64,000 bases of DNA from Leptotrichia sp. oral taxon 218 (GTDB taxonomy: Bacteria; Fusobacteriota; Fusobacteriia; Fusobacteriales; Leptotrichiaceae): NCBI RefSeq assembly GCF_018128225.1, contig NZ_CP072377.1, forward strand, positions 1,426,001 through 1,490,000. The letters are read 5' to 3'. The notes under the pieces are model-generated. The model made no database searches and was not told the DNA's origin. It saw only the letters and a list, made by a program, of their open reading frames with translations. The position numbers and the translations under genes were made by a program. Of the stretch, positions 3,154-56,047 are shown in pieces; positions within the stretch are counted from its first letter, which is position 1, and each line of letters starts with the position of its first letter.

Positions 3154-3239
3154 AAATATTTTTTTATTTTTTATCTTTATTTTAATAGAATTATTATTTC
3201 AACTTGAGTGCCACAATGACACCTGATACAAAATTTATG

Positions 3240-4090
3240 GTTTCAATCCTTGTTTTAATGGATAAACTACTTTAACCAACTATCAAACGACCTATGTTAT
3301 TTCGTTTCAATCCTTGTTTTAATGGATAAACTACTTTAACGATTACCACATTACACAGCTATCAGAAGAGCATTGAAGTTTCAATCCTTGTTTTAATGGA
3401 TAAACTACTTTAACATGTGTATGCTAATAGCAGATACGAAATTTTCAAGGAATTGTTTCAATCCTTGTTTTAATGGATAAACTAGTTTAACCTGCTATCT
3501 GTGTTTCGATAGCGATTGGGTATTCTCGTTGTTTCAATCCTTGTTTTAATGGATAAACTAGTTTAACAGCATTAGAATGTTCAATAGGAACTACTCTTTC
3601 CTGAATGTTTCAATCCTTGTTTTAATGGATAAACTAGTTTAACCCAAAACTCTAATAGAACGATTCTTTAAAACTTTCATAAGTTTCAATCCTTGTTTTA
3701 ATGGATAAACTAGTTTAACTTTCCCGAAAGGGGAAATTGATAGTAATGTCGTAGAGTTTCAATCCTTGTTTTAATGGATAAACTAGTTTAACCAAATGAA
3801 CTACAAAACACTTACGACAAGCAATTAGAGGGTTTCAATCCTTGTTTTAATGGATAAACTAGTTTAACTAATTCTAATTCACGGTTAGCATTAAAGTACA
3901 TCATGTTTCAATCCTTGTTTTAATGGATAAACTAGTTTAACATTAACTGAGCCTTTCTATATGGGAGAAGAATTAGTAGTTTCAATCCTTGTTTTAATGG
4001 ATAAACTAGTTTAACAGGAACAGAATATATTAAAACCGTAAAAGACTTGGAATGTTTCAATCCTTGTTTTAATGGATAAACTAGTTTAAC
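3240..4090 (-). CRISPR. CRISPR array, 12 repeats of 37 nt, 11 spacers
   Basis: Repeats start at 3240, 3304, 3378, 3455, 3531, 3607, 3683, 3756, 3832, 3905, 3979 and 4054. On the plus strand each begins GTTTCAATCCTTG and ends CTAGTTTAAC. Spacers are 36-40 nt except the leftmost (3277-3303), which is only 27 nt. The three leftmost repeats share one substitution (CTACTTTAAC), marking that side as the old, leader-distal end. Read on the minus strand the repeat ends in ATTGAAAC, the usual 8-nt crRNA handle of type I-B/III systems. A promoter and leader lie to the right and a terminator to the left, agreeing with leftward transcription. No cas operon is in the window apart from the CARF gene at the left edge. 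Confidence 0.97.
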
Positions 4091-4297
4091 CCGTACTTTC
4101 AAGAAAACCCTTTATTCATCAATGTTACAGAGATTTTTTCAGACATTAAAATTGCTTTTTTTTGCTTAATTTTTTTCAATTTTTGTCGTTTTTTTAGCAT
4201 TTTCCGTAACTCCTAATCCCCATTTTTACTGGCTTTGAATGGATTTTCTTAACACTTTTTTATTTCTTGTAGTGGTAGGAACTTTTTCTACAAACTT
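4091..4297 (-). promoter_or_regulatory. CRISPR leader
   Basis: About 200 bases of A/T-rich, gene-free sequence between the array and its candidate promoter, adjacent to the end whose repeats are all identical. The position is that of a leader, where new spacers are added. The weak plus-strand ORF across it is not credible as a gene. Confidence 0.6.
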
Positions 4298-17970: not shown

Positions 17971-18009
17971 TAAAAAAAATAGAGTAAATTTATTTTTAAA
18001 ATCTACTCT
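17971..18009 (-). terminator. Terminator of the IStron-split Spy-like gene
   Basis: Arms AGAGTA (17981-17986) and TACTCT (18004-18009), with a longer A/T stem possible inside, and a T-run on the minus strand after the stem. It follows the stop at 18017. Confidence 0.5.
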
Positions 18010-18016
18010 TAATTTT

Positions 18017-18424
18017 TTAATTTTCATCCAAAAACTTACTTTGTTCATCAGTCAAAACTGAACGAATTTTTTCATTTCTAATTTTTTTCAAATCTTCATA
18101 TTTTTGTGTAAACATTTCTACGCTCAATCTGTTGTTTTTCAGATTTTCTACATTTCTTTTAAAATCACGCTCAAATTTTAGAACTTTTGCTTTTTGCTGA
18201 TTTGTCAAATTTACATTGTCTTCAAGTTTTTTAATTCTGTCAATTTTTTCATTAAAATCCTTTTTTTTTGAATTTATATAAGAATTATATTGTTCTAATT
18301 GCTCGTTTGTCAAAATTTTTGCAATTTCTTCATATCTTTGAGTTTCTATTTTTCCAATTTTTTCTTTTTTTTCTTCAAATGTTATTAACTCTTTTTCAAC
18401 ATCTTTAGCTTTATTTTGATATTT
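18017..18424 (-). CDS. Spy/LTxxQ-like exported protein, 3' exon
   Basis: This is the second exon of a gene split by IStron A. It encodes 135 residues, KYQNKAKDVEKELITFEEKK through to SKFLDEN, in phase 0. Joined to the 5' exon (20208-20387) it gives a 195-aa periplasmic protein. Helical, Lys/Glu-rich, with repeated LTxxQ-type motifs: LTNEQ, LTNQQ and LTDEQ here and VTKNQQ in exon 1. This is the pattern of CpxP/Spy-type envelope-stress chaperones. The track-style start at 18313 is a TTG inside the exon and is not a real start. Without splicing this part is not translated from the gene's own start. Confidence 0.85.
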   Translation of the reverse strand, partial: KYQNKAKDVEKELITFEEKKEKIGKIETQRYEEIAKILTNEQLEQYNSYINSKKKDFNEKIDRIKKLEDNVNLTNQQKAKVLKFERDFKRNVENLKNNRLSVEMFTQKYEDLKKIRNEKIRSVLTDEQSKFLDEN

Positions 18425-18536
18425 CTGAACCTCTCACGACTGAAGTCGCGAGGTTCTTGGGTAGTAGTTGCTTTTTTTAGCCAACTAAATTTACCAAGCT
18501 ATCCCCATAGTTCCTACGGTTCATATATTTATATAT

Positions 18537-19640
18537 TTAAGCACTTTTTTCCAATATTCTTAGTCCTTCTTTTAGTATGTTTTTGGCTGCATTTTTATCT
18601 CTATTATGTACAGCTCCACATACTGGACAATTCCATTCTCTTACACTTAAATCTTTTACTTCTTCATTCTTATATCCGCAACAGTTACATATTTGACTAC
18701 TTGCAAAAAACTTATCTACTTTTACTATCGTTCTTCCATACCACTTCGCTTTATATTCCAGTATTCTACTAAATTCACTCCATGATACGTCTACAATATT
18801 TCTTGCTAATTTATGATTTCTTACCATATTTTTTACTTGCAAGTCTTCCATACAGATAATGTCATATTTTCTTATCAGTTCTGTCGATAATTTCTGCAAA
18901 AAGTCTTTTCTTTGATTTGTTACTTTTTCATAACATTTCGCTACTTTTATTCTAGCCTTATTTCTATTTGAACTGCCCTTTGTTTTTCGTGACAGTTTTC
19001 TTTGGCATAAAGCTAGTTTTTTCAAAGACTTCTGTAAATATTTTGGATTCTCTATTAAGGTTTCATCACTGGTAATCGCAAAGTTCTTTATACCTAAATC
19101 TATTCCAACATTTTTATTTGTGCTCTCTAGTTTTTTTATTTCTACATCTGTACAACATAAAGATATATAATATTTTCCACTAGGTACTTGTGTTATTGTT
19201 GCACTTAGTATCCTTCCTTGTGGTGTCATCTTATCTCTTATTTTTAGTTTTCCTAACTTAGGTACTTTTATCCATTTATCTAAAAACTCTATATTATTAT
19301 TAGTATAACTAGTTCTGTATGATTTTCTATTATCTTTCTTAGATTTAAACTTTGGATAACCCTTTCCACTAAAAAAGTTCTTATAGGCTTTATCTAAATC
19401 TTTTAAAGAATTTTGTAAAGAAAATTTATCTACATCTTTTAACCATTCTTTATCTTTCTTTAAAACTGTTAATTCTTTACTACACTCACTATATGACATA
19501 GACTTTTTCTCTGTATTATACAGCTTTTGTTTTAAACCTAAAAAATGATTATAGACATATCTAACACAACCAAAAGTACAATTTAACTTTTCTATTTGAG
19601 TTTTAGTTGGATAAAATCTGAACTTGTATGCTTTTTCCAT
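18537..19640 (-). CDS. tnpB: TnpB RNA-guided nuclease in IStron A
   Basis: 367 aa, intact. The RuvC-like residues are in GIDLGIK (Asp), CMEDLQ (Glu) and NRDKNAA (Asp). The zinc ribbon is complete (CNCCG and CPVCG). The N-terminus [14 protein letters not shown]...FGCVRYVYN is the usual DNA-binding part. GGAGGTG lies 8 bases before the ATG. A promoter with TATACT and a palindrome ACTTATACATAAGT (around 19658-19671) directly precedes it, possibly an operator. It is the only undamaged TnpB among the three IStrons, so it might serve the others in trans if ends are compatible. Confidence 0.92.
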
Positions 19641-19699
19641 TTGATTTCACCTCCATTTACTTATACATAAGTATACTATTTTTTATACTGTAAGTAAAT

Positions 19700-20207
19700 G
19701 AAAAAATAAAATTTTTCTAAATATATGAACCTACAAACTGACTTAGTCGTTTTAGAGGTTGTCGTTCACATAAGTACGCTACCACCTATGCAGTTCTCTT
19801 ATGAACTTCTTAATATTTCTATTAAGCACAGACTATATCTTATCCCACAGCTTTACCTGTTTGGGTCTACCCACTTCCACGAAGCTTTCCGTGTACTTCC
19901 CTCAGGAGGAATAGTCGTTGAACCTTACCTTTCGGTCTTGGCTGCTGATTGCCCATTGTCTTAACACTTAGGGTTTAACCTTATGTCATCTAGTATATTT
20001 TTTCTGCTTTCGCCACTTTCACATCTGTACTGTATTTATTTAGGTATTATGTTGTAGTTATACCAGCTTTAGGGGTTCCCAGCAATTCGAGTAGTATTGG
20101 ATAGCTTTTTTTAAGTTGCTATCTCCACATACATATTTCTATATATGCTGACTATACTTCTCGGTCTAACTCATTCCTTGCGTCACGAGTGTGCGACCGC
20201 ATTTTTA
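19700..20207 (-). ncRNA. Group I intron core of IStron A
   Basis: Conserved group I elements are readable on the minus strand in order: a GCTGGGAACC-type P/Q block (20074-20083), AATCAGCAGCCAAG (19937-19950), P7 5' strand GACTA within GTTCAACGACTA (19912-19916 complement), and the S element AAGATATAGTC (19831-19841), whose TAGTC pairs with it. P1 could form between exon TTTGAT and GTTAGA (20165-20170). The intron's 3' end is not here but at 18425, beyond tnpB, as in known IStrons. The short ORFs that cross this region on either strand are by-products of the RNA. Confidence 0.85.
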
Positions 20208-20387
20208 ATCAAATATTTTCTCCAATTTTTTCTGCTGATTTTTCGTTACATTCAATTTTTTAAAAATATCACCTTTTGAAACTTTTACGACATAAACTTT
20301 TTCATAATAATCTTCATAAGAATAAACAAAACTGCTCATTCCAAAAACCATCACTGAATAAATAATCAAATTTTTTATTTTTTTCAT
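20208..20387 (-). CDS. Spy/LTxxQ-like exported protein, 5' exon
   Basis: First exon, 60 codons. The ATG at 20387 has GAAAGG 7 bases upstream; the longer reading to 20408 ignores this. A signal peptide MKKIKNLIIYSVMVFGMSSFVYS is followed by YEDYYEKVYVVKVSKGD and LNVTKNQQKKLEKIFD. The exon ends TTTGAT at 20208. Without splicing the next codon is TAA inside the intron, giving a truncated 60-aa product; with splicing the frame continues into 18424 as KYQNK. guaB lies upstream on the same strand, with a strong hairpin between them. Confidence 0.85.
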
Positions 20388-20424
20388 TTTTTTCCTTTCA
20401 AAGTCCATTTAATCTTAAACTTCA

Positions 20425-20455
20425 GACTGTCTTAAAAATAATTTTTAAGACAGCC
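20425..20455. terminator. Strong hairpin after guaB
   Basis: A 15-bp stem with one mismatch (20425-20439 with 20441-20455) 10 bases beyond the guaB stop. The T-rich tail is best on the plus strand (20456 on), while the minus-strand tail is weak. It probably still blocks or attenuates guaB readthrough into the Spy-like gene. Confidence 0.5.
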
Positions 20456-20465
20456 TTTTATTTTT

Positions 20466-21941
20466 TTATTTATTTGAATTATTGTAATTTGGAGCTTCTT
20501 TTGTAATAATTACATCGTGCGGATGACTTTCTTTAAGTCCTGCTCCTGTAATTTTCACAAATTTTCCATTCAATTTCAAATCTTCAATTGTCGGAGTTCC
20601 GCAATACCCCATTCCTGAGCGAAGTCCTCCACAAATTTGATAAACCGTGTCTTTTAATGCACCTTTATATGGAACCATTGACTCTATTCCTTCTGGAACC
20701 AATTTTTCTGTAGCTGATTCCAATTGGAAATATCTGTCTTTACTTCCTCTTTTCATTGCTGCAAGTGACCCCATTCCAGCATAAGTTTTAAATTTTCTTC
20801 CGTTGTACAAAATTTCTTCTCCTGGTGCTTCATCAGTTCCGGCAAGCATTCCACCAAGCATTACGCAATCTGCTCCAGCGGCAATCGCTTTTACAACATC
20901 TCCAGATAATTTAATTCCACCATCAGCAATTACTCCAATTCCTTTGTCTTGGCAAACTTCAGCAACATCCATAACCGCTGAAATTTGTGGAACTCCTACT
21001 CCTGATACAACTCTTGTCGTACAAATTGATCCAGGTCCAACACCAACTTTTACGGCATTTACTCCAGCTTCAATTAAATCAAGTGCAGCTTCTTTTGTAA
21101 CAATGTTTCCACCGATAATATCCAATTTTGGAAATGCTTCTCTAATTTCTTTAATTTTATTTATAACTGCTTTTGAGTGTCCATGAGCTGAATCCACTGC
21201 AATTATATCAACTCCAGCTTCAACCAACGCTTGAACTCTTCTCACAGAATCAGGTCCAACACCAACTCCAGCTCCCACACGAAGTCGTCCTTGACTGTCT
21301 TTTGCGGCATTTGGATAATTTATTACATTGTCAATATCTTTTATTGTGATTAATCCTTTTAATTTTGTTCCTTCCACAATTGGCAATTTTTCAATTCTAT
21401 GTTGAAGCAATATTGTTTTTGCTTCATCCAATGTAGTTCCGACTGGTGCAGTTATTAAATTTTCTTTTGTCATAACTTCTGTAACTTTAGACGATAAATC
21501 TTCTCTATATTTTAAATCTCTATTTGTAATAATCCCTTTCAAATTTCCTTCTCCGTCAACAACTGGAAGTCCTGAAATTTTATATTCCTTCATAAGTTTA
21601 TTTGCATCTTCCAAAATAGCATCTTGACGCAATGTAACAGGATTTGTAATCATTCCGCTCTCATATCTTTTAACTCTTGCCACTTCCTCAGCTTGTCTTT
21701 CAATGGTCATATTTTTATGAATAAACCCAATTCCACCTTCTCTTGCAATAGCAATCGCAAGTTTTGATTCTGTCACAGTATCCATAGCTGCACTTAAAAT
21801 TGGCATATTTAATTCCAAGTTTTTAGTCAGCTTTGTCTTTAATACAACTTGATTAGGCGCTACTTCCGACGCTTGTGGAATAAGAAGCACATCATCAAAT
21901 GTCAATCCTTCAGAAATTACAATTTTGTTTTTTTTATCCAT
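20466..21941 (-). CDS. guaB: IMP dehydrogenase
   Basis: 491 aa. It oxidises IMP to XMP with NAD+, the committed step to GMP. The TIM barrel is split by a pair of CBS domains at about residues 95-205 (VTEVMTKENLITAPVGTTLDEA). The catalytic loop GPGSICTTRVV contains the active-site Cys, the flap is YAGMGSLAAMKRGSKDRYFQ, and the C-terminal SGMGYCGTPTIEDL is present. It starts MDKKNKIVISEGLTFDDVLLIP, with GGAGG before it. Confidence 0.97.
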   Translation of the reverse strand: MDKKNKIVISEGLTFDDVLLIPQASEVAPNQVVLKTKLTKNLELNMPILSAAMDTVTESKLAIAIAREGGIGFIHKNMTIERQAEEVARVKRYESGMITNPVTLRQDAILEDANKLMKEYKISGLPVVDGEGNLKGIITNRDLKYREDLSSKVTEVMTKENLITAPVGTTLDEAKTILLQHRIEKLPIVEGTKLKGLITIKDIDNVINYPNAAKDSQGRLRVGAGVGVGPDSVRRVQALVEAGVDIIAVDSAHGHSKAVINKIKEIREAFPKLDIIGGNIVTKEAALDLIEAGVNAVKVGVGPGSICTTRVVSGVGVPQISAVMDVAEVCQDKGIGVIADGGIKLSGDVVKAIAAGADCVMLGGMLAGTDEAPGEEILYNGRKFKTYAGMGSLAAMKRGSKDRYFQLESATEKLVPEGIESMVPYKGALKDTVYQICGGLRSGMGYCGTPTIEDLKLNGKFVKITGAGLKESHPHDVIITKEAPNYNNSNK

Positions 21942-50051: not shown

Positions 50052-50130
50052 CTGAACCTCCCACGACTAAAGTCGCAGGGTTCTAAAATCTTTAAAAATA
50101 TTTAAAAATTTTCTAAGAAGTTTGATAGCT

Positions 50131-51379
50131 TTACACTACCCTTATTCTTTTAGGCGTATTCAGCTCACCTCTATTGTATAGGACACTTAAGTCCACAACT
50201 TTACTTTTCCTTAATATGTTTAATGCTCCATTACAATCCGCATTTATAAGTTTACCTGCACTTGTTTGATATAGTCCTCTTTTTATCCTTTTTCCACTGA
50301 ATATATATTCTTGCGGATTCTCTTTATCATATATCGGAATTTCATCTCCATCAAAGAAACTTGCTTTTGATGTATAACTTTCTTCTTGCAGTTTAAATTC
50401 TATTCCATATAGTTTACATAGATATATTAATTTATCTCTTAATTTTCCATATGGTATATTTACAAAGTTTTGATTATTTATACTTCCAATATTTGAATTT
50501 CTTTGAAAATCTTCATTATATCCTAAAATTATTTTTCCTATATCATTATTAAGACAATAATTTACAATTATTCTTGCTGCTTTTGAAAGATAATCTTCGT
50601 ATACGATTATTTCTCTTTCTAGCTATTCTTTTTTGTCTTAATGTTGTCCGCTTAATCTTTTGCTTATCTTTAATGCTTTGCAATTTTGCATTTATCTTAT
50701 TATAGTATTGATTAATAGATTTTAATTTTCTACCATCTATTATGAATGATGCTCCATTATTAGTTACACAAGTGCAAAGATTGTCTATACCTAAATCAAT
50801 TCCTAGTGCATTTTCTTTATTTAATTCCCTTTGAACTTCTTCTACCTCATAAGTATATTGAATTTCAAAGTACCTAGAATGTTGTTTAGGTATTATTCTA
50901 ATTTCTTTTATCTTCTTGTCTTTTAATACTGGTGGTAGTTTTATTGCGATTTCCTTATGTGTCTTTCTAAATGAATTTGAATAAGGAACTATCAGCATAT
51001 CATCTTTTAATCTAACAAAACCTATAACAAGAGTTGTAAAACCATCTTTATCAAGATATTTAGGTAATTTTATATCTTTAAAATTATATTGACCATTCTT
51101 AGCAAGTTTTAAAAGTCCAAAAAATGATTTGAAACTTCCGTCTACTTCTTTTAGAATTTGCTGAGCCATATTAGAATTTAATTTTTTATAATTATCACTA
51201 TTTTTAAGCATTTTATAGTTTTCGTTATAACTTAAATACTTTTTATTTTGAAAATAGTGTTGTCTAATATTATATATAGCTTCATTAGTTAAGTTCTTGG
51301 CTATATGGCACAAATATTTTAAATTTCTAAACTCTTTTTTACTAAGATGTTTTACTTGTTGTTTTAAAGTTAAATACAT
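50131..51379 (-). pseudogene. tnpB: tnpB of IStron B, frameshifted
   Basis: Starts at the ATG at 51379 (AAGGAGGTG 6 bases upstream), reads MYLTLKQQVKHLSKKEF to LRQKRIARKRNNRI, then a single extra base (around 50618, compare the intact stretch in IStron C) shifts the frame. The lost part, including NYCLNNDIGKIVLGYNEDFQ with the RuvC Glu and NADCNGALNILRK with the last Asp, is still readable downstream to a stop at 50131. This lineage has no Cys zinc ribbon (SFFDGDEIP type). No functional nuclease is expected. Confidence 0.85.
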
Positions 51380-51479
51380 AGATATCACCTCCTTTTCATC
51401 AGAGATATTATACCATGTACTCTACATTTTATTTGTCAAAAAAGTAATATCTTTTATTTATTTTTAAATATTTTTAAAG

Positions 51480-51962
51480 TTTTTAAAACCCCACAACAGC
51501 GGGAAGCGTCGTTCACATAAGTACGCTACTACTTATGCAGTTCTCTCATGAACTTCTTGTTATCTCTAACAAGCACAGACTATATCTTATCCATATCCTA
51601 TTTCAAGGACTTAGGCGAAACCACTTCCAATACCTATCGCTTGTATTGTACTCCCCTCACGAGGGATAGTCGTTGAACTTTCCTTTTCAGGCTTAGCTGC
51701 TGATTGTCTATTATCATGATGTTTAGGATTTAACCTTGCACCATCTAGTATATTTTTTCTGCTTTCGCTACCTTCACACTTATACCATATTTTAACGAAG
51801 GTATTATGTTGTGGTCGTACTAGCTTTAAGAGTTCCCAGCAGTTCAGTTTCTTTGTTGCACGGTTTTGCTCCGTGTCTACATACAAGTTTCCCTATATGC
51901 TTACTAAAATTTTCGTACAATTCATCTCACGACTAAAGTCGCGAGTGTTCTTGTACTATTTA
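51480..51962 (-). ncRNA. Group I intron core of IStron B
   Basis: Conserved elements on the minus strand: CTGGGAACTC, AATCAGCAGCTAAG (51691-51705), GTTCAACGACTA with P7 5' strand (tagtc of the plus strand at 51667-51671) and the S element AAGATATAGTC (51578-51588). The core is well preserved although tnpB has decayed. The 91-residue ORF overlapping it is an artefact of the RNA sequence. P1 may form with GTGAGA of the left-end hairpin and exon TTTTAT. Confidence 0.85.
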
Positions 51963-52003
51963 ATAAAAACATCATAAATTTCTGCAAACTCTTTATGTTC
52001 CAT
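51963..52003 (-). CDS. SAM-dependent methyltransferase, 5' exon
   Basis: 13 codons plus two bases: MEHKEFAEIYDVF and AT. AAAGGTG lies 7 bases before the ATG. Read through without splicing it would end after two further codons at TAG in the intron. The -10 box TATAAT with TG extension is at 52042-52047. Confidence 0.8.
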
Positions 52004-54092: not shown

Positions 54093-54171
54093 CTGAACCT
54101 CCCACGACCAAAGTCGCAGGGTTCTAAAATCTTTAAAAATATTCAAAAATTTTCTAAGAAGTTTGATAGCT

Positions 54172-55420
54172 TTACACTACCCTTATTCTTTTAGGTGTGT
54201 TCAGCTCACCTCTATTGTATAGGACGCTTAAGTCCACAACTTTACTTTTTCTTAATATATTTAATGCTCCGTTACAATCTGCATTTAATTGATAGCCTTT
54301 ACTTGTTTGATATAGTCCTCTTTTTATTCTTTTTCCACTGAATATATATTCTTTTTGATTTTCTTTATCATATATCGGGATTTCATCTCCATCAAAGAAA
54401 CTTGCTTTTGATGTATAACTTTCTTCTTGCAGTTTGAATTCTATTCCATATAGTTTACATAGGTATATTAATTTATCTCTTAATTTTCCATATGGTATAC
54501 TTACAAAGTTTTGATTATTTATACTTCCTAATATTTGATTTTCTTTGAAAATCTTCATTATATCCTAAAACTATTTTTCCTATATCATTATTAAGACAAT
54601 AATTTATAATTATTCTTGCTGCTTTTGAAAGATAATCATTTATACGATTATTTCTCTTTCTAGTTATTCTTTTTTGTCTTAATGTTGTTCGGGAGGTCTT
54701 TTGCTTATCTTTTATACTTTGTAATTTTGCATTTATCTTATTATAGTATTGATTTATTGATTTTAATTTTCTACCATCTATTATGAATGATGCTCCATTA
54801 TTAGTTACACAAGTACAAAGATTATCTATACCTAAATCAATCCCTAGTGCATTGTTTTCATTTAATTCCCTTTGAACTTCTTTTACTTCGTAAGTATATT
54901 GAATTTCAAAGTACCTAGAATGTTGTTTAGGTATTATTCTAATTTCTTTTATCTTCTTGTCTTTTAATACTGGTGGTAGTTTTATTGCGATTTCCTTATG
55001 TGTCTTTCTAAATGAATTTGAATAAGGAACTATCAGCATATCATCTTTTAATCTAACAAAACCTATAACAAGAGTTGTAAATCCATCTTTAGCAAGATAT
55101 TTAGGTAATTTTATATCTTTAAAATTATATTGACCATTCTTAGCAAGTTTCAAAAGTCCAAAAAATGATTTGAAACTTCCGTCTACTTCCTTTAGAATTT
55201 GTTGAGCCATATTAGAATTTAATTTTTTATAGTTCTCGCTATTTTTAAGCATTTTATAGTTTTCGTTATAACTTAAATACTTTTTCTTATTAAAATAATA
55301 CTGTCTAATATTATATATAGCTTCATTAGTTAAGTTCTTGGCTATATGAGATAAATATTTTAAATTCCTAAACTCTTTTTTACTAAGATGTTTTACCTGC
55401 TGTTTTAAAGTTAAATACAT
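54172..55420 (-). pseudogene. tnpB: tnpB of IStron C, frameshifted
   Basis: Starts MYLTLKQQVKHLSKKEF at 55420 and stays open through LSKAARIIINYCLNND and IVLGYNEDFQRKSN. It is then broken by one extra base around 54535 (ATTAGG where B has ATTGG). The rest, GSINNQNFVSIPYGKL to RGLYQTSKGYQLNADCNGALNILRK, continues in another frame to 54172. The lesion is different from that in IStron B, so the two copies decayed separately. Confidence 0.85.
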
Positions 55421-55519
55421 AGATATCACCTCCTTTTCATCAGAGATATTATACCATGTATTCTACATTTTATCTGTCAAAAAAGTAATATTTTTTATTT
55501 ATTTTTAAATATTTTTAAA

Positions 55520-56047
55520 GTTTTTAAACCCCCACAACAGTGGGAAGCGTCGTTCACATAAGTTCGCTACTACTTATGCAGTTCTCATGGCATATACACT
55601 CCTTAATAAATTAAGGAGATTAGCCTTGAACTTCTTGTTATCTCTAACAAGCACAGACTATATCTTATCCTTATCCTTATCCTATTTCCAAGGACTTAGG
55701 CGAAACCACTTCCAATACCTACCGCTTGTATTGTACTCCCCTCACGAGGGATAGTCGTTGAACTTTCCTTTTCAGGATTAGCTGCTGATTGTCTATTATC
55801 ATAATGTTTAGGATTTAACCTTGCACCATCTAGTATATTTTTTCTGCTTTCGCCACCATCACACTTATACCGTATTCTCACTTAGGTATTATGTTGTGGT
55901 TATACTAGCTTTAAGAGTTCCCAGCAGTTCAGTTTCTTTGTTGCACGGTTTTGCTCCGTGTCTACATACAAGTTTCCCTATATGCTTACTAAAATTTTCG
56001 TACAATTCATCTCACGACTAAAGTCGCGAGTGTTCTTGTACTATTTA
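55520..56047 (-). ncRNA. Group I intron core of IStron C
   Basis: Same order of elements as in IStron B: AATCAGCAGCTAAT, GTTCAACGACTA (plus-strand TAGTC at 55752-55756) and AAGATATAGTC (55656-55666). The extra hairpin CTCCTTAAT-AA-ATTAAGGAG at about 55600-55620 lies after the S element, in the peripheral 3' part of the core. The 61-residue ORF here is an artefact. Confidence 0.85.

Follow-up and report, generated by a model that had tools for sequence, protein, structure and literature searches.

Group A IStrons, in the parts of the survey by Tourasse and colleagues devoted to them, are inserted after TTGAT, ATTAT or TTTAT without target duplication and end in TCAG; their IS part lies past the P9 domain, after a GAACGA-type motif and within an inverted repeat, and carries an ORF B of the IS200/IS605 type, ORF A being complete or lost (Tourasse et al., 2014; PMC4227781). 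These parts also report that 58% of insertions are intragenic, 54% of those being in frame, and give a maximum of 24 copies per strain. CdISt1 of Clostridioides difficile, also of group A, is present in 9–24 copies per strain, some of them with ORF A, and experiments by others, cited in the same survey, have shown that it splices. Five IStrons inserted after TTGAT were described in F. nucleatum subsp. polymorphum (PMC1924603, 2007), and the later survey lists FnISt1, FnISt2 and LbISt1, the last from Leptotrichia buccalis (Tourasse et al., 2014). The initial annotation of the locus studied here regarded a fusobacterial set of IStrons as unusual, which these reports contradict. A full-text literature search, with subscription papers mostly outside its reach, returned no later survey of fusobacterial or Leptotrichia IStrons.

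The element that we analysed lies in a window of 64,000 nt (the whole stretch of DNA under study) from Leptotrichia sp. oral taxon 218, and it belongs to the published group A class. All six copies of its family in the genome (family 1) have the TTGAT target and the TCAG end, the GAACGA motif is found at 19762–19767, the inverted repeat is exact over 14 nt, and ORF B is present without ORF A (Table 1). Judged by their published descriptions, FnISt1 and LbISt1 resemble it: they too have a T-rich target (TTGAT, for example), end in TCAG and combine an IA2 intron with an ORF B of IS200/IS605 type and a truncated ORF A in 1.76–1.86 kb. They differ in number, with one copy of LbISt1 and three to five of FnISt1 against at least six family-1 and at least 28 family-2 copies here (Tourasse et al., 2014). 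This load of at least 34 IStrons in two families is also above the 9–24 copies given for CdISt1 and the published maximum of 24. ISDra2 (IS8301) also targets TTGAT, and its ends are homologous to those of CdISt1, but unlike our element it is a two-ORF IS without an intron part. The stand-alone Fusobacterium introns have a related IA2 intron at TTGAT but neither the IS part nor the inverted-repeat stem (Tourasse et al., 2014). As the class itself is established, what seems to us worth keeping is the copy load and the contrast, within one genome, with TnpB elements that have no intron.

We hold with high confidence, from the sequence and its comparison with relatives, that this IStron, inserted after TTGAT in a conserved Spy/LTXXQ-like gene, is spliced out so that codons 60 and 61 are joined. 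Splicing in vivo is very likely because covariation, uninterrupted homologues, a bias in sense and frame over 34 copies, the contrast with intron-less elements and the copies in topA and gmk all point to it.

Table 1. Features of the IStron and of the interrupted gene (window coordinates)
Feature	Position	Strand	Evidence
5' exon, codons 1–60 of the Spy/LTXXQ-like gene, ends TTTGAT	20208..20387	-	gapless 60-residue alignment to 12/12 congeneric homologues, ending directly before the 3' piece
Whole IStron, 1,783 bp, ends GGTTCAG	18425..20207	-	same target and outer ends in 6/6 family-1 copies; absent at the site in 12/12 homologues
P1: exon TTTGAT (20208–20213) with internal guide GTTAGA (20165–20170), U.G at the splice site	20165..20213	-	sequence
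Left-end subterminal palindrome ACTCGTGACGCAAGGAATGAGT, IS200/IS605 type	20169..20190	-	sequence
Group I core	19764..20094	-	structure drawn on this sequence, counted on 23 sequences
P3	20089–20094 with 19867–19872	-	drawn structure
P block; Q; R; S	20075–20087; 19940–19950; 19912–19923; 19831–19841	-	drawn structure
P7 (GACTA/TAGTC pair)	19912–19916 with 19831–19835	-	drawn structure
P9 and P9.1	reaching 19764	-	drawn structure
Inverted repeat around the IS part, 5' arm GGTTCATATATTTA	19718..19731	-	exact reverse complement of 18518–18531
tnpB (ORF B), 367 aa, intact	18537..19640	-	Pfam and structure-chain matches
Inverted repeat around the IS part, 3' arm TAAATATATGAACC	18518..18531	-	exact reverse complement of 19718–19731
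Right end: predicted omegaRNA scaffold, terminal GGTTCAG, omega-G 18425	18425..18536	-	97–100% identity in 6/6 family-1 copies including this one
Right-end palindrome CTCGCGACTTCAGTCGTGAG	18433..18452	-	sequence
3' exon, codons 61–195 and stop	18017..18424	-	homologues in register; PF07813 at 22.2 bits, below cut-off

The host gene is read on the minus strand from an ATG at 20387 through 60 codons to TTTGAT (20208), and its remaining 135 codons and stop (18424–18017) follow the element in the same phase, making a single joined frame of 195 codons. Read on from the 5' exon, the element begins with an in-frame TAA. The coordinates, motifs and length of 195 aa in the initial annotation proved exact to the base, as did its statement that removal of the element restores the frame: the 60 and 135 codons are in phase and align gapless and in register with all 12 homologues. 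It had also called for comparison with related genomes, and here the gene is uninterrupted at the insertion site in all 12 congeners, with sequences that fit the predicted junction. In each of them the 5' piece aligns to this locus as well and ends exactly where the 3' piece begins, the two pieces abutting with no residue gained or lost. Searched alone in 13 genomes of the genus including the source genome, the 3' piece is encoded in all 12 others; in one locus (L098) its local alignment begins at residue 2, in register. The frame is fully open in 11 of the 12 congeners; in the twelfth (G008) it changes at a different point, further downstream. At the junction in the closest genome nothing lies between the two flanks, which are identical to those of the source genome at 184/198 and 363/408 nt, and comparison with the uninterrupted homologues shows that insertion occurred without target duplication. 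Values of dN/dS against this closest genome (0.03 for the 5' piece and 0.12 for the 3' piece) indicate that the gene is under constraint, a signal that may come largely from its history before the insertion. The earlier label of the gene as Spy-like is weak: the 3' piece scores 22.2 bits with PF07813 (LTXXQ), against a cut-off of 24.3, and no Pfam family exceeds its cut-off on either exon piece. The product is probably exported.

The core of the intron part is of group IA and complete, and its helices show compensatory changes. Group I introns share consensus blocks named P, Q, R and S, which read here AATTGCTGGGAAC (P), AATCAGCAGCC (Q), GTTCAACGACTA (R) and AAGATATAGTC (S). The group I core proposed in the initial annotation is thus present in its Q, R and S blocks and its P7 pairing, and it is supported by covariation over 23 sequences. 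These were hand-chosen for spread from 57 distinct core sequences of the source genome and its relatives, leaving out the 5'-truncated L122; the expected IA layout was written by hand onto the top row of their alignment, and the pairs were then counted over all 23. The drawn pairs are formed in 97.4% of 1,531 cells (69 pairs, 23 sequences), compared with 33–42% when the drawing is slid along the alignment, both-sided changes occur in 25 of the 69 pairs, and the covariation score is 0.303 against 0.031–0.064 in the slid versions. P3, pseudoknotted with P7, is paired in 23 of 23 sequences, with both-sided changes in four of its six pairs and zero mispairs. P7 is likewise paired in every sequence; it is invariant, as is P4, and both are therefore silent on covariation, which also holds for P1, whose exon motif is invariant in family 1. 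The omega-G is at 18425. The extra helices of the IA2 subgroup P7.1, P7.2, P9 and P9.1a each show both-sided changes (P9.0 and P9.2 were not drawn). The drawing fits less closely at the innermost pair of the helix in columns 152–156/194–198, missed by 11 of the 23 sequences, and at the inner P8 pair, missed by ten; the second P8 helix is represented in only about half of the rows. The count of further pair types goes against the fold (40, with a shuffle mean of 47.3 and 500 of 500 shuffles as high). None of the shuffle results can be read as a probability, the structure being hand-drawn on the first row and the sequences related. The covariance-model search that the initial annotation had advised came back empty, as Rfam gave no group I match at gathering score in the 64,000-nt window, nor any with E up to 5 within 18000–20500. 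Rfam was thus dropped as proof of the intron in favour of the drawn structure and its covariation; the miss reflects the coverage of the library and not a class-defining feature.

The TnpB protein matches PF12323, PF01385 and PF07282 above cut-off. Its closest natural solved chains are 8bf8 and 8h1j (E 2.9e-105), which we take to be ISDra2 TnpB, with TTGAT presumably the TAM of that nuclease; the one better match, 9yyg, is a designed nuclease. The protein is predicted to be an RNA-guided nuclease that cuts beside a TTGAT TAM. No tnpA (ORF A) was found in the element, none of the four Y1_Tnp matches of the genome lying inside it. A stretch of 23 nt spanning the left-end palindrome matches elements with tnpA elsewhere in the genome, at 87 and 91%, and the last 54 nt of the IStron match three elements of the genome at 81–87%, with 55 nt matching a fourth at 89%. 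Two Y1_Tnp matches sit in elements whose last 54 nt are 85–87% like those of the IStron and which have a matching left-end palindrome; both tnpA elements examined appear to sit after TTTAT, not TTGAT. Such tnpA-bearing IS605 elements with similar ends might mobilise the IStron in trans. Mobilisation in trans by another IStron was judged unlikely in the relevant part of the survey of Tourasse et al. (2014; PMC4227781), on the ground that genomes with truncated copies have no copy with an intact ORF A. Two apparently non-autonomous elements of about 250 bp (L150, ~1515–1779, and L151, ~1957–2214) have left and right ends of IS605 type that resemble the ends of the elements with tnpA.

The genome encodes 58 TnpB domains, and the intron core is present at 34 places at least: six, including this one, at 95–100% identity (family 1) and 28 at 73–79% (family 2). 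These come from a match list of 46 rows, 12 of which are second pieces of the same copies, with the best 40 of 54 candidates scored. Family 1 follows TTGAT in six of six cases and family 2 follows TTTAT in 27 of 28; the remaining family-2 copy (L046, G000 1788870) has an extra T before the element (TTTATT, then TAAATAG). All 34 listed copies end in TTCAG, the motif by which the end was located. Could the locus instead represent a stand-alone group I intron that came to lie beside an unrelated tnpB element through two adjacent insertions? Stand-alone introns of the same sequence family, lacking tnpB, do exist in the genus: G007, G011 and G012 each have a pair of them in a single gene. However, each of the 34 listed intron copies has a tnpB downstream, not always intact, together with an end of the same type, and the inverted repeat and GAACGA motif place the IS part where it is described for group A (Tourasse et al., 2014; PMC4227781). 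We therefore rejected two insertions as extremely improbable.

The stand-alone introns (L127 1–2000, L130, L136, L125 and L131) lie in a gene that by eye resembles a precorrin reductase, in three species, and both introns of this gene follow an in-frame codon pair ...ID. Intron DNA matches were obtained in 8 of 13 genomes of the genus and 10 of 98 genomes of the phylum, the source genome counted in both; one of the latter (G042) extends over 26 bases only and is probably due to chance. The search of the 98 genomes scored at most six candidates per genome and so yields no copy numbers, and such searches, working by DNA similarity, would overlook diverged relatives, among them the published Fusobacterium ones. 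A search for TnpB relatives gave 17 loci, none of them titled Leptotrichia or Fusobacterium (near records may be left out), and a scan of these found a loose P/S motif in one (L115) and a Q/S motif in another (L122). The latter, from a Lachnospiraceae MAG of sheep rectum, is a truncated relative (3220–4100) with an intron core, a frame that looks tnpA-like by eye and the first part of a tnpB.

Two family-2 IStrons following TTTAT lie elsewhere in the window, on the minus strand (50052–51962 and 54093–56047), with broken tnpB genes having open frames of 163 and 130 aa; the first is in frame near the start of a gene named by eye as methyltransferase-like. The best internal guide of family 2, also chosen by eye, is GAUGAA (for example at 51900–51967), in which U(−1) pairs with A and the U.G wobble falls at +1, that is one base inside the intron, an arrangement reported for group B IStrons. 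The frames of the 11 in-gene family-2 copies nonetheless demand splicing after TTTAT. The window also has a CRISPR array at 3240–4090 on the minus strand, with 12 repeats matching CRISPR-DR7.

The frames around the listed copies bear on whether the introns are active. In six of six family-1 and 11 of 28 family-2 copies the 5' and 3' flanks each keep the same phase open for at least 30 codons; moving the 3' flank by one base leaves one and three such copies, respectively, and moving it by two bases leaves none and two. A second control, in which flanks were mispaired between copies, gave means of 4.5 of 6 and 8.3 of 28 (maxima 6 and 13, against 6 and 11 observed) and does not discriminate, because the copies share phases. 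Given this failure, the argument is carried by the shift control together with the homologues and the elements that have no intron. All 17 in-phase copies (six of family 1 and 11 of family 2) are in sense. Antisense frames are open around two copies of each family at 30 codons, and around none and one at 50, and every copy with an antisense frame also has a sense frame, leaving no antisense-only copy. Counts of target sites put the share of sense sites among in-gene sites at 65% for TTGAT and 37% for TTTAT, from which an all-sense outcome has P values of 0.07 and 1.8e-5. The other family-2 copies are intergenic or near gene ends, including one near an end (390 codons before, four after) in phase 1. 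This phase is absent from the 11 in-phase family-2 copies, compared with 22% of TTTAT sites (P 0.06), and an insertion in it would allow translation to run further into the intron.

The genome itself supplied a control in 24 TnpB elements without this intron, 19 of which had both ends placed while the other five were dropped, their ends being unplaceable. This comparison is blind to frame, since the ends are known only to within a few bases. Sense frames of at least 40 codons on both sides surround 17 of 34 IStrons and none of the 19 intron-less elements (Fisher P 1.1e-4); the corresponding counts are 16/34 and 0/19 at 50 codons (P 1.6e-4) and 15/34 and 0/19 at 60 codons (P 3.5e-4), and at 30 codons a single one of the 19 counts (36 and 44 codons). 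Insertion into an antisense frame occurs once among the 19. The contrast is direct comparative evidence that the intron makes insertion into genes tolerable.

The interrupted genes could be named in part. Flank pieces of 13 of the 34 copies, 20 in all, were run separately against NCBIfam; 17 pieces matched, mostly below whole-protein cut-offs as expected of fragments, and three had no match. The genes so identified include topA, dprA, recJ, sbcC and those for mannose-1-phosphate guanylyltransferase, a secretin, a nucleotidyltransferase, a ClpB-type ATPase and a sigma-70-type factor. The copy that splits topA has an intron 95% identical to the one studied here, and this topA is single in the genome, all three matching rows falling within its two pieces. 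One family-2 copy (L044, G000 ~449178–451089) follows AT and precedes G, immediately ahead of the gmk reading frame. It apparently splits the gmk start codon, which by sequence would be restored only by exact splicing, and this gene is the only guanylate kinase of the genome above cut-off. Both topA and gmk are essential in most bacteria. If they are needed here in the same way, the IStron copies in them make splicing in vivo close to obligatory.

One could still suppose that the element is a plain IS605-type transposon whose intron has decayed or become inactive, that the Spy-like gene is broken, and that the in-frame layout arose by chance. Some published IStron copies have mutated ribozymes, according to the part of that report dealing with them (PMC1924603), and the gene may be non-essential, one of its 12 relatives (G008) having a frame change. 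We nevertheless consider such decay very unlikely. The core of the intron is complete and pairs throughout, six of six family-1 copies are in genes and in phase, intron-less TnpB elements avoid sense frames (none of 19 at 40 codons), and the copy with the 95%-identical intron interrupts the only topA.

The preferred reading, an active intron, would operate as follows. The intron would fold in the transcript, its internal guide GTTAGA pairing with the exon sequence UUUGAU; a guanosine would attack after U20208, and the freed 3' hydroxyl of the exon would attack after omega-G 18425, joining codon 60 to codon 61. The TAA at the first base of the element would halt ribosomes ahead of the ribozyme. 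The initial annotation pictured a self-splicing element sitting silently in a coding gene, and the element would indeed be self-splicing and silent on this scheme. By the known biology of ISDra2-type TnpB, the first bases of the 3' exon would form the guide. TnpB would be guided by an RNA made of the right end and these bases and would cut the empty site beside TTGAT, after which the element would be restored from a sister copy. Without a tnpA of its own, its mobility could come in trans from IS605 elements of the same genome that carry tnpA and have similar ends.

Splicing at 18425/18424 would part the scaffold from the guide, so that one transcript could serve one fate only. Splicing might be inefficient, making the element a switch between a truncated protein of 60 aa and the full protein, or mainly a source of guide RNA for TnpB. 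The phosphodiester between 18425 and 18424 is both the 3' splice site and the predicted boundary of scaffold and guide, and the two outputs would accordingly compete; such a conflict between intron splicing and guide RNA is reportedly the subject of a 2024 paper. The genes named above are functionally unrelated, however, which does not suggest a chosen switch, and we regard this alternative as improbable, if less so than decay of the intron. The copies in topA and gmk offer clean loci at which to study the competition between splicing and the TnpB guide RNA.

The genome as a whole can serve as a test bed, since two families of IStrons (at least 34 copies) lie beside 24 TnpB elements without the intron; at 40 codons IStrons do lie in sense frames, and none of the 19 of those 24 elements that could be compared does. 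Tentatively, and with rather less than even confidence, we suggest that this bacterium may have become dependent on ribozymes. About half of the 34 IStrons are in genes; one of them splits the only topA, another apparently the start codon of the single clear gmk, and growth would then need continuous splicing. As splicing would destroy the guide RNA of TnpB, the needs of the host and the retention of the element could be opposed genome-wide, while elements lacking tnpA could spread through the tnpA of IS605 elements acting in trans. If this is true, growth of the organism would require group I splicing at many loci at once.
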